Made by a program: the position numbers and the translations under genes. Of a stretch of DNA of 64,000 bases, positions 35,160 through 38,740 are shown piece by piece. This DNA comes from Stella humosa (GTDB taxonomy: Bacteria > Pseudomonadota > Alphaproteobacteria > ATCC43930 > Allostellaceae): assembly GCF_006738645.1 (NCBI RefSeq), contig NZ_AP019700.1, positions 1,810,001 through 1,874,000 on the forward strand, read 5' to 3'. Every line of letters starts with the position of its first letter. The stretch's first letter is position 1. The notes beneath the pieces are model-generated. The model was not told where the DNA came from, did no database searches, and worked only from the letters and a program-made list of their open reading frames with translations.

Positions 35160-36329
35160 ATGCCCGCTGACGGGGTCGGGGCGGCACCTTCGGGTGCCGC
35201 CCCATCGCCGGCCGCCGACCAGGTCGCGCGGCTGGCTGACAAGTATTTCATCAAGACCAAGGAGACGGTCGGCCGCTTCGGCGACACCCGCGTCACCTAT
35301 GCCGTGTTCATGCGCCGCCCGGTCATCTGCACGCCGCGCCTGGCGGTCGGCTGGCTGGAGGAGATGGCCCGCGCGCGCGGTGTCGAGTTCGACATCCGCC
35401 TGACCCATCCCGAGGGCGCCTGGGTCGGTGCCGGCGAGCCGCTGATGATGCTGTCCGGCCCGCTCTACCACCTGGTCGACCTGGAGACGATCTATCTCCA
35501 GAAGCTGGGGCCGGCCTGCGTGGCCGCCTACAACGCCTACCAGATGTGCGTCGACCTACCGAACGTCGACTTCATGGCGATGGACGCGCGCCACTGCGCC
35601 GGGGCGGAGATGGCCGACATGATGGCCTATGCCGCGAGCGTCGGCTCGGCCGCGGCCAGGCGCGACGTCGGCGCGCGCGGTTTCGTCGGCAACGCCAACG
35701 ACGCGACGGCGCACCATTTCGGCCGGGAGCGCGGCATGGGCACGATGCCACACGCGCTGATCGGCTATGCCGGATCGACCGTGCGCGCGGCCGAGATGTA
35801 CCACGAGGCCTTCCCCGACGAGGCGATGACCGTGCTGGTCGACTATTTCGGGCAGGAGGTGACGGACTCCCTGGCCGTATGCCGCCGCTTCCCCGAGATG
35901 GCGGCCGAGGGCCGGCTGGCCTTCCGGCTCGACACCCATGGCGGCCGCTACCTCGAGGGGCTGGACCTCAACAGCTCGTATGCCGTGCTCGACCGCCACG
36001 CGCAGCGCTCGATCCGCGGCTATCGCACCGATACCGAGCTGCGCCACCTGGTCGGTACCGGCGTGTCGGCCGCGGCCATCTGGCATCTCCGCGAGCGCCT
36101 GGACGAGGCCGGATTCGGGGCGGCCCGCATCGTCGCCAGCTCCGGCTTCAACCCGGGCAAGTGCAAGGCCATGGCGATCGCCGAGGTGCCGGTCGACGTC
36201 ATCGGCACGGGCTCCTACCTGCCGGAGACCTGGACCGAGACCTATGCCACCTCCGACATCGTCTCCTATGGCGGCAAGCCCAGCGTGAAGGTGGGCCGCG
36301 AGTTCCTGCTGCGCTACCTGGATCACTGA
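35160..36329 (+). CDS. Nicotinate phosphoribosyltransferase
   Basis: 389 residues. Family landmarks are DKYFIKTKETVGRFGDTRVTYAVF, the MLSGPLYHLVDLETIYLQ stretch, DARHCAGAEM, GFVGNANDATAH, GTMPHALIGYAG and FRLDTHGGRYLEG, followed by VASSGFNPGKCKAM and GTGSYLP. It makes nicotinate mononucleotide from nicotinate and PRPP with ATP, an NAD salvage step. The first 20 residues (GAAPSGAAPS repeat) are encoded by a near-perfect hairpin (35178-35203). No other suitable start lies before the conserved DKYF, so I keep the ATG at 35160. Confidence 0.9.
   Translation: MPADGVGAAPSGAAPSPAADQVARLADKYFIKTKETVGRFGDTRVTYAVFMRRPVICTPRLAVGWLEEMARARGVEFDIRLTHPEGAWVGAGEPLMMLSGPLYHLVDLETIYLQKLGPACVAAYNAYQMCVDLPNVDFMAMDARHCAGAEMADMMAYAASVGSAAARRDVGARGFVGNANDATAHHFGRERGMGTMPHALIGYAGSTVRAAEMYHEAFPDEAMTVLVDYFGQEVTDSLAVCRRFPEMAAEGRLAFRLDTHGGRYLEGLDLNSSYAVLDRHAQRSIRGYRTDTELRHLVGTGVSAAAIWHLRERLDEAGFGAARIVASSGFNPGKCKAMAIAEVPVDVIGTGSYLPETWTETYATSDIVSYGGKPSVKVGREFLLRYLDH
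35178..35203 (+). promoter_or_regulatory. Strong C(UUCG)G hairpin in the start region of the phosphoribosyltransferase gene
   Basis: GGGGCGGCACC (35178-35188), a TTCG loop and GGTGCCGCCCC (35193-35203) form an 11-pair perfect stem 18 bases into the open frame. There is no T run after it, so it does not look like a simple terminator for the DAHP synthase gene. It may reduce translation initiation or mark an mRNA end with Rho. Confidence 0.6.
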
Positions 36330-36357: not shown

Positions 36358-37203
36358 ATGATGGGCCATGCCTGGAGGGGAGCGTTGGCGGCGCTGCTGC
36401 TGGGCGTGCCGGCGCTGCACGCCGCCGAGATGCCCATCATCGACGCCCACCTGCACTACAGCGCCGATGCCTGGGACATGCTGCCGCCGGAGGACGCGGT
36501 CGCGATCCTGCGCAAGGCCGGCATCCGCCGTGCGCTCGTCTCCAGCTCCAGCGACGACGGCACGCAGAAGCTGTTCGCGGTTGCCCCCGACCTGATCGTG
36601 CCGGAGCTGCGGCCCTATCGCCGGCGTGGCGAACTGTCGAGCTGGATGCACGACCCCACGATCGTGACCCACCTGGAAGACCGGCTGCGCCGCTTCCGCT
36701 ATGTCGGGATCGGCGAGTTCCACGTCTATGGCGCCGATGCCGACCTGCCGGTGGTGCGCCGCATGGTGGAGTTGGCGCGCGAGCATCGCCTGTTCCTGCA
36801 CGCCCATTCCGATGCGGCCGCCGTCGAGCGCCTGTTCGCCCAGGACAAGGACGCCACCATCCTGTGGGCCCATTCCGGCTTCGACAGCCCGGCCAACGTG
36901 CGCGCCATGCTGGAGCGCCATCCCAACCTGTGGTGCGACCTGGCCTTCCGCAGCGACCATGCGCCCGGCGGCAAGCCCGACCCCGAATGGCGGTCGCTGT
37001 TCGAGGCCTTCCCCGACCGCTTCATGGTCGGCACCGACACCTTCGCGCCCGAACGCTGGCACTATGTCGCCCGCCACGCCGAATGGTCGCGCGCCTGGCT
37101 GGCCGACCTGCCGGCGCCGCTGGCCGAAGGCATCGCCTGGCGCAACGCCGACCGGCTGTTCGAGCGCTTCGCGGCCGGCCGCTTCCCGGCGCGCACGCAA
37201 TGA
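36358..37203 (+). CDS. Exported amidohydrolase-family protein
   Basis: 281 residues with a signal peptide (about 1-22, GVPALHAAE). The mature part is an amidohydrolase TIM barrel: IIDAHLHYSADAWD (HxH motif), then RYVGIGEFHVYGADAD, LFLHAHSDAAAVERLF, ILWAHSGFDSP and MVGTDTFAPE, which give the usual metal-ligand His and Asp residues. The hydrolase substrate cannot be seen; the group includes 2-pyrone-4,6-dicarboxylate-lactonase-like and other amidohydrolase-2 proteins. A Lys ligand is not obvious. Its stop overlaps the next ATG (ATGA at 37200-37203). Confidence 0.85.
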   Translation: MMGHAWRGALAALLLGVPALHAAEMPIIDAHLHYSADAWDMLPPEDAVAILRKAGIRRALVSSSSDDGTQKLFAVAPDLIVPELRPYRRRGELSSWMHDPTIVTHLEDRLRRFRYVGIGEFHVYGADADLPVVRRMVELAREHRLFLHAHSDAAAVERLFAQDKDATILWAHSGFDSPANVRAMLERHPNLWCDLAFRSDHAPGGKPDPEWRSLFEAFPDRFMVGTDTFAPERWHYVARHAEWSRAWLADLPAPLAEGIAWRNADRLFERFAAGRFPARTQ

Positions 37204-37604
37204 GGCTGTTGCTGGCGGCCCTGTTGCTGCTGGCACCGGTGGCGGCCGCGGCCGAGTGCGGGGACGAGCTGGGCGAGACCGGCGTCCGCCGGATCGAGCT
37301 GCCGCGCTTCACGCTGGCCTACCTGCCCGACACCCCGCTGCTGGCGCCCTCGCAGATGTTCACCCTCCAGGTCGCCGTCTGCGGCCGGGAAGGGGGGCCG
37401 GCCCCGGCCCTGGTGCGCGTCGGTGCCTGGATGCCGGAGCATGGGCACGGCATGAACTACGCGCCCTTGCTGTCCGACGAGGGCGAGGGGCGCTGGCGGG
37501 TCGACGGCATGATGTTCCACATGCCCGGCCGCTGGGAGGTGACCTTCGACCTCGGCACGGCGCGCCGCACCGAGCGCCTGGTGGCCGAGGAACTGGTCGA
37601 CTGA
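37200..37604 (+). CDS. FixH/YtkA-like exported protein, His/Met-rich
   Basis: 134 residues with a signal peptide (about 1-18, APVAAAAE). The fold region resembles YtkA/FixH-type domains: TLQVAVCG early, then RVGAWMPEHGHGMNYAP and VDGMMFHMPGRWEVTFDL. The His and Met clusters on these two strands could bind Cu(I) or another metal; this is inference. It is coupled upstream to the amidohydrolase (ATGA) and downstream to the di-heme peroxidase (TGATG), so all three are translated as a unit. Confidence 0.8.
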   Translation: MRLLLAALLLLAPVAAAAECGDELGETGVRRIELPRFTLAYLPDTPLLAPSQMFTLQVAVCGREGGPAPALVRVGAWMPEHGHGMNYAPLLSDEGEGRWRVDGMMFHMPGRWEVTFDLGTARRTERLVAEELVD

Positions 37605-38740
37605 TGCGCCGGCCCGGGTGGCTGGCGGCGATCCTGCTCGTCGCGGCCGCCCTGTTGGCGGATGCCGCCGCCGCCGAATTGACCCCGGCCGAGACCGCCC
37701 GCATCCTGCGCCACGGCCCCTGGCCGCTGGCCTGGCGGCCCGATCCCGGCAACCGGCTGTCGGGCAAGGCAGAGGCGGTCGAGCTTGGCCGCGCACTCTT
37801 CTTCGATAGCCGGATCTCGCCGGACGGCACGGTCGCCTGCGCCACCTGCCACCGTCCCGACCGGGCGTGGACGGATGGCCGGCCGGCCAGTCGCGGCCTG
37901 GCCGACCATGACCGCAACGCGCCCTCGCTGCTGGATGTGCGGCTATGGCGCTGGTTCGGGTGGGACGGCGCGTCCGACAGCCTGTGGGCGGCCAGCCTGC
38001 GGCCGATGCTGGAGCCGGGGGAGATGGGCGGCTCGGTTGCGGCACTGGCCCGGCTGGTGCGCGAGGATGCGGGCCTGCGCGCGCAGTACCGGACGGCGAC
38101 GGGCGACGCGCCGGCCACCGACGACATGGCCGTCGCCGTCGATGCCGCCAAGGCCCTGGCCGCCTTCCAGGAAACTTTGGTCGGCGGCCGCTCGCCCTTC
38201 GACCGGTTCCGCGACGGGCTGGCATCGGGAGACCGGGCGGCGGTGGCGGGATATCCGGCCGACGCGCTGCGCGGCCTGCGCCTCTTCGTCGGCCGCGGTA
38301 ATTGCAGCGTCTGCCACCTGGGGCCGGCCTTCACGAGCAGCGAGTTCGAGGATGTGGGGGTCGGCTACTTCCTCGGCCGGGGGAAGGCCGATGCCGGCCG
38401 CATCGCCGGCATCGACCGGTTGCGCGCCAGCCCCTTCAATCGGCTGGGGCCCTGGAGCGACGGCGGCGGGGCCGATGCCGCGGCCACCCGCCATGTCGCA
38501 GCCCAGCATCGGGATTTCGGCCTGTTCCGCGTGCCCTCGCTGCGCAACGTGGCGGCGAGCGCCCCCTACATGCACCACGGCCGGCTGGCCAGCCTGGAGG
38601 CGGTCGTCCGCCACTATTCGGAGGTCGACGAGGAGCGCCTGCATGTCGACGGCGCCCGCCTGGTGCGCCCGCTGCGTCTTTCGGAGGGAGAGGCGGCCGA
38701 CCTGGTCGCCTTCCTGCGCTCGCTTACTTCGGAGCCGTGA
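37604..38740 (+). CDS. MauG-like di-heme cytochrome c peroxidase
   Basis: 378 residues with a signal peptide (about 1-24). Two heme c sites are visible, CATCH at 79-83 and CSVCH at 234-238, plus the family's LGRALFFDSRISPDGT, the conserved EMGGS region, and RVPSLRNVAASAPYMHHG near the C-terminus. It could reduce periplasmic hydrogen peroxide, or oxidise a protein or small molecule as MauG does. The two domains and length match the family. Translation is coupled to the FixH-like gene. The 3' end overlaps the convergent sensor kinase gene by 17 bases. Confidence 0.93.
   Translation: MRRPGWLAAILLVAAALLADAAAAELTPAETARILRHGPWPLAWRPDPGNRLSGKAEAVELGRALFFDSRISPDGTVACATCHRPDRAWTDGRPASRGLADHDRNAPSLLDVRLWRWFGWDGASDSLWAASLRPMLEPGEMGGSVAALARLVREDAGLRAQYRTATGDAPATDDMAVAVDAAKALAAFQETLVGGRSPFDRFRDGLASGDRAAVAGYPADALRGLRLFVGRGNCSVCHLGPAFTSSEFEDVGVGYFLGRGKADAGRIAGIDRLRASPFNRLGPWSDGGGADAAATRHVAAQHRDFGLFRVPSLRNVAASAPYMHHGRLASLEAVVRHYSEVDEERLHVDGARLVRPLRLSEGEAADLVAFLRSLTSEP

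Follow-up and report, generated by a model that had tools for sequence, protein, structure and literature searches.

Three overlapping genes at positions 36,358 to 38,740 (+ strand) of the Stella humosa window, meaning the whole 64,000-nucleotide stretch that was analysed (contig NZ_AP019700.1, positions 1,810,001 to 1,874,000), almost certainly form a genuine conserved unit. They encode a predicted exported amidohydrolase (A), YtkA/FixH-like protein (B) and di-heme MauG/MbnH-like enzyme (C). Because these genes stay together as an invariable set in many alpha- and betaproteobacteria, they very probably serve one joint function that has so far not been described. We propose a mechanism centred on B: C would oxidise B itself or the copper site that B carries, and B would act on A or together with it. 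We would give this mechanism an even chance of being correct. The coordinates, reading frames and overlaps of the genes were verified as exact:

36358..37203, + strand: gene A, exported amidohydrolase of 281 aa (PF04909) with a TatD-like set of metal ligands
37200..37203, + strand: ATGA overlap of A and B (4 nt), read from the sequence
37200..37604, + strand: gene B, exported YtkA/FixH-like beta-sandwich of 134 aa, probable copper-binding protein
37602..37606, + strand: TGATG overlap of B and C, read from the sequence
37604..38740, + strand: gene C, exported di-heme MauG/MbnH-like enzyme of 378 aa (PF03150)

All three products have a hydrophobic N-terminal stretch that leads into an A-x-A-like site, identified by eye, which predicts export. 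Coordinates, frames and hydrophobic N-termini thus confirm the three coupled, exported reading frames described in the initial annotation, and its proposal of one operon with one exported function is supported. In the window, the trio is flanked by a sensor kinase on one side and by a gene that we read as DAHP synthase and a NAPRT-like gene on the other; no mau genes were found in its neighbourhood there. The NAPRT-like gene (window 35160-36329) directly follows DAHP synthase, ends 28 bp before A and scores below every NAPRT cut-off in NCBIfam.

The trio is an obligate conserved unit. Strong matches, defined as at least 390 bits for A, 124 bits for B and 440 bits for C, were compared across a constant set of 387 alphaproteobacterial genomes: those to each of the three proteins fall in the same 29 genomes, from about 11 families, and the genes there are contiguous and in order. 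This three-way co-occurrence rules out chance adjacency, and the gene-neighbourhood check proposed with the initial annotation, namely whether the trio is conserved in relatives, has a clear positive answer. A scan of genome contigs with an A profile returned 359 relatives, the best 80 of which are mostly from Alpha- and Betaproteobacteria and in nearly all cases have B and C directly downstream; the trio is widespread in Betaproteobacteria also, with changing flanks. At 110 A loci, B was found in 102 and C in 103, with all three in order in 101, so that A-B-C is the order at all but one of the loci where B was recognised. A 4-nt overlap of A and B is available at 62 of 96 unfused loci, compared with about 5% expected for any given offset.

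Within the genus Stella, four of four genomes have the trio, always in the same position behind DAHP synthase and the NAPRT-like gene, with the contig of one genome ending inside C. Elsewhere the flanks differ: a genome of another family (G086) has the trio with other neighbours, and the trio adjoins what we read as groES/EL in Rubrivivax and as sdh-type genes in Rhodocyclales. The flanking genes are lineage-specific and none is common to all loci. We therefore rejected the trio as part of a NAPRT/DAHP synthase operon, whose genes are shared neighbours only within Stella. A few genomes have A alone: in G145 and G232, B and C are both missing from the surroundings of a close A (365-378 bits), and the same holds for A genes at three further loci (L061, L072 and L087). 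In a metagenome-assembled genome (L110), A and C are direct neighbours and a recognisable B is absent. Weaker A homologues, scoring below 290 bits, are present in 19 genomes; neither B nor C occurs in the flanking stretches examined there, some of them partial. A plasmid collection contains weak A homologues only and no B of the trio type. At two further loci (L100:5974-6804 and L130), an in-frame stop codon in mid-gene splits A, although the frames of B and C are intact; one locus is from a metagenome-assembled genome and the other from what is likely a copy of that genome or a close relative.

Full-text literature, with most subscription papers lying outside it, yielded no text treating a FixH- or YtkA-like protein together with a cytochrome c peroxidase and no description of a B-centred mechanism, and for MauG with YtkA it yielded unrelated co-mentions of YtkA only. 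The initial annotation had likewise known of no pathway for the trio, and none was found in the literature searched.

The position of B within the unit emerges from fusions and from partial gene sets. A and B are fused in one open reading frame at six loci (L091, L095, L098, L111, L118 and L136), with no second signal peptide between the two parts; on the A tree, fusion needs four changes and thus about four independent origins. No A-C or B-C fusion was found among the trio loci. Beyond the 29 trio genomes, the B profile detected three weaker relatives in the 387-genome sample. Two of these, at L201 and L202, immediately precede a MauG-like gene, no amidohydrolase being present, and their products carry extra His/Met-rich N-terminal stretches. 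A further B-like gene directly upstream of a C-like gene without A was found at L018, with a partial pair at L017, and in the plasmid collection the B-like match has a C-like gene directly downstream in five of five records, again without A; where annotations are given, they name a FixH family or DUF3703 protein and a cytochrome c peroxidase. The coordinates and loci of such pairs are as follows:

L201:3035-5036, L202:4147-5992 and L203 to L207: YtkA/FixH-like and MauG-like gene pairs without an amidohydrolase

The pair-type B-like proteins that were read have the MPxHxHG motif in common, and pairs without A span Alpha-, Beta- and Gammaproteobacteria as well as Gemmatimonadota, partly on plasmids. 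A YtkA/FixH-MauG-like pair of this kind, without an amidohydrolase, is apparently undescribed. Fusion links B to A and gene pairing links it to C, which makes B the hub of the system. The initial annotation held it plausible that a product of the amidohydrolase reaction is matured or oxidised; for oxidation of a small molecule by C this is not supported, as the B-C pairs without A point to B as the partner of C, and the A-B fusions to B as the partner of A.

B is probably a copper-binding protein, judging from its modelled fold and from residues that do not vary across the family, which lie mainly in two motifs:

37431..37460, + strand: MPxHxHGMNY motif of B (M78, H81, H83, M85), with M78, P79, H81, H83 and N86 invariant (n = 95)
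37518..37535, + strand: HMxGxW motif of B (H107, M108, W112), invariant in 95 sequences

In the alignment of these 95 sequences, C61, M78, P79, H81, H83, N86, H107, M108, G110 and W112 do not vary at all, and C20, M85 and Y87 vary very little. Against the Pfam family PF13115 (YtkA), B scores 23.3 bits, just under the cut-off of 25.9, and a same-genus relative (G002) scores above it with 27.0; no NCBIfam family matches B, including MbnP (TIGR04052). The AlphaFold model (pLDDT 91) is an eight-stranded beta-sandwich, and its nearest solved folds are those of Helicobacter pylori CrdA, apo and silver-bound (TM about 0.73 on CrdA length), followed by copper-binding FetP. CrdA is a copper-resistance protein that binds copper, with a Met-rich site as the proposed place of binding (PMC9182242), and YtkA (CtaK) is a copper-assembly factor for CuA (PMC9145763, PMC13344008). 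The metal handling that the initial annotation had read from the His/Met clusters of the middle protein is thus supported by a predicted copper-type fold and by invariant Met and His residues. CtaK of Bacillus subtilis and CrdA are, like B, small exported proteins, with copper-binding Met and in CtaK also His, and B shares the CrdA fold; in contrast to both, it has its own MPxHxHGMNY...HMxGxW signature, and its gene neighbours are A and C instead of genes for oxidase assembly or efflux. YtkA proteins of relatives within the order have the Met but not the His pair of MPxHxHG. The third of the weaker B relatives, in genome G109 (L200:4017-4445), has no A or C beside it in a genome without close A or C; it has lost M78, H81, H83, H107 and M108 and kept W112. 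Three other sampled genomes of its genus possess the trio. The metal ligands of B therefore follow the presence of C, whereas the Trp does not. W112 is the only invariant Trp in B and is common to generic YtkA proteins; as it is also kept in this orphan, we rejected a kynurenine at W112 of the kind known from MbnP and MopE.

C is a PF03150 (CCP_MauG) protein, with 133.6 bits against a cut-off of 25.6 and a C-terminal cytochrome c domain in Pfam, and it is the only PF03150 match in the genome. Its main features are the following:

37838..37852, + strand: first heme-binding CXXCH of C (C79-H83), with H83 in 92 of 92 near-full-length relatives and C79 and C82 at 0.99 (n = 104)
37961..37963, + strand: Trp120 of C in a GWDG context, in 90 of 92 relatives, aligned with the inter-heme Trp position of MauG
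38303..38317, + strand: second heme-binding CXXCH of C (C234-H238), with H238 in 92 of 92 near-full-length relatives and C234 and C237 at 0.97
38615..38617, + strand: Tyr338 of C, present in 92 of 92 relatives and lying in the alignment at the position of Tyr294, the axial heme ligand of MauG

Both CXXCH motifs, Trp120, Glu140 and Tyr338 are kept in 90 to 92 of the 92 near-full-length relatives. The best PDB sequence match is 6e1c, entered as 'Di-heme enzyme', which is the MbnH structure, followed by peroxidases and MauG, and Tyr338 aligns with a Tyr of 6e1c also. Classical bacterial cytochrome c peroxidases have at the Tyr294 position a Met that serves as distal ligand of the electron-transfer heme; with Tyr in its place in all 92 relatives, C is not one of them. 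C resembles the MauG of methylamine utilisation in its two CXXCH motifs, the Tyr at the Tyr294 position and the inter-heme Trp. The view of the initial annotation that C is a MauG-type enzyme, able to act on partner proteins, is supported. However, C falls far below the NCBIfam cut-offs for MauG (TIGR03791, 170.8 against 443.85 bits) and MbnH (TIGR04039, 154.8 against 362.85 bits), and it has neither a methylamine dehydrogenase or mau operon alongside nor an adjacent MbnP, so that we do not count it as a member of either family. In the alignment, C has no Trp counterpart of MauG Trp199, the surface relay; the electron exit must therefore differ.

A belongs to PF04909 (Amidohydro_2; 46.4 bits against a cut-off of 26.4 in Pfam) and carries the following metal motif:

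36448..36456, + strand: HxH metal motif of A (H31, H33), invariant in the trio and nearly so in non-trio homologues

The candidate metal ligands H31, H33, E120, H148, H172 and D227, whose spacing is TatD-like, are conserved also in homologues without B or C nearby. In a model of the natural A-B fusion from L091, of Quisquiliibacterium transsilvanicum (pLDDT 93.7, pTM 0.81), the A half is nearest to an amidohydrolase-type TIM barrel and to TatD enzymes; a PDB sequence search with A and B as queries gave no usable match. By its modelled fold, A is a metal hydrolase with or without B and C, since the ligand residues are common to homologues that lack both nearby. A shares fold and HxH, E, H, H, D ligand positions with TatD/Amidohydro_2 hydrolases and differs from them in being exported and in having trio-specific residues, e.g. 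S64, R90, E232 and H240, which may have a role in substrate binding or at an interface. Most of the conserved Trp and Tyr residues of A are found in homologues without B or C nearby as well, so that no A residue clearly stands out as a trio-specific cofactor site.

Based on these findings, we propose the following hypothetical mechanism, in which A, B and C would form one periplasmic module with B at its centre: (i) B would bind copper, probably Cu(I), via M78, H81, H83 and M108, with M85 and H107 added in the trio lineage; (ii) C would be charged by H2O2 to a high-valent state and draw electrons from B over a long range; (iii) in doing so, C would oxidise the copper bound to B, or a residue of its metal site, in a way similar to the action of MbnH on MbnP; (iv) A, as a binuclear-metal amidohydrolase in complex with B, would be given the copper state or modification of B, or this state or modification would report on A. 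We regard oxidation of B's copper or of a residue of its metal site by C, with B acting on A or together with it, as the most economical model. Against it count the few A genes without B or C nearby, the locus L110 with A and C but no recognisable B, the score of B just under the YtkA cut-off, the lack of a copper operator in a search upstream of A and the generic nature of W112. The chemistry of the model is made plausible, without being proven, by known parallels. In MbnH/MbnP, CorB/CorA and SACCP/MopE, an exported di-heme MauG-like enzyme is likewise encoded beside an exported copper-binding partner, and for CorA and MopE a copper site with kynurenine has been shown by structure. The trio differs from these pairs in that C lies far below the MbnH cut-off and the only MbnP-like gene of the genome is not adjacent, in that B has a YtkA fold, being neither an MbnP (TIGR04052) nor a MopE/CorA protein, and no candidate trio-specific Trp, and in that an amidohydrolase is added. 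BthA of Burkholderia is likewise a MauG-type di-heme enzyme kept beside an exported metallohydrolase; that hydrolase is a putative phosphatase rather than an amidohydrolase, and the part of the source consulted reports no YtkA protein. More specifically, C may oxidatively mature a YtkA-type copper protein, whose copper or modification would then join an amidohydrolase complex; the trio would be a single branch of a broader, undescribed YtkA-MauG partner system that extends beyond one phylum. We put this forward tentatively, as possible though rather doubtful in its entirety.

A described gene arrangement suggests a different division of labour, in which A would be the catalytic end product, B its copper chaperone, and C would build an oxidised amino-acid cofactor in A. 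The layout of enzyme, copper chaperone-like and MauG-like genes is the same as in the mtoX-SCO1/senC-mauG operon of methanethiol oxidase (PMC5739008), A-B fusions exist, the related YtkA/CtaK assists CuA assembly, and in the 387-genome sample A sometimes occurs alone, whereas C and close B never occur without A. However, A is an amidohydrolase rather than an SBP56 protein, retaining ordinary ligands and no clear trio-specific cofactor residue; B is YtkA-like rather than SCO-like; and the wider B-C pairs exist without A. We consider this division of roles unlikely. MtoX itself was rejected as a partner of C, as the genome has no match to MtoX/SBP56 (PF05694).

It is less likely again that C serves to detoxify copper or peroxide, as a cuprous oxidase or peroxidase driven by H2O2; B would then be the Cu(I) carrier or electron donor, and A no more than a co-regulated enzyme for repair or scavenging. 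A His/Met-rich B-like protein adjoining a C-like gene in the pair lineage, the presence on plasmid pPNAP03 of a cation diffusion facilitator gene some 6 kb away from the pair and the copper-resistance role of CrdA would all fit, but the obligate A and its repeated fusion to B would be left unexplained, and a simple pattern search upstream of A found no copper operator. The same search found no zinc or FNR-type operator there. We think it very improbable that B and C are an MbnP/MbnH-like pair in which A hydrolyses an intermediate on B, for example by deformylating N-formylkynurenine. Among solved structures C is nearest to MbnH by sequence, B-C pairs recur, and an amidohydrolase attached to B would suit its processing; against this, B is not an MbnP, the invariant W112 occurs in YtkA proteins generally and persists where C is absent, and A shows no sign of being a deformylase. 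Least probable of all is that C acts on a protein encoded elsewhere, its place beside A and B reflecting shared regulation only: C, the sole PF03150 protein of the genome, coexists there with an orphan MbnP homologue that has no neighbouring MbnH, but an MbnP homologue occurs in only 5 of the 29 trio genomes, for which reason it was rejected as a general partner of C, and the Stella humosa copy appears to have a degenerate WxW motif. This orphan gene (TIGR04052, 197.6 bits) lies at L194:6939-8024 (C1, about 5543938-5545023, minus strand) between mutL and metK.

MauG-like proteins constitute a very large family, of which few members have a known substrate. The constant presence of B beside C and the repeated fusion of B to a hydrolase name a likely substrate and make the question testable. 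If C matures B for an amidohydrolase complex, the result would be an amidohydrolase-fold enzyme with copper or a protein-derived redox cofactor. If the B-C pair works as proposed, the YtkA fold would be a second fold among the partners of MauG/MbnH-type enzymes, which would also explain many genes whose present annotation goes no further than 'FixH family protein' and 'cytochrome c peroxidase'.
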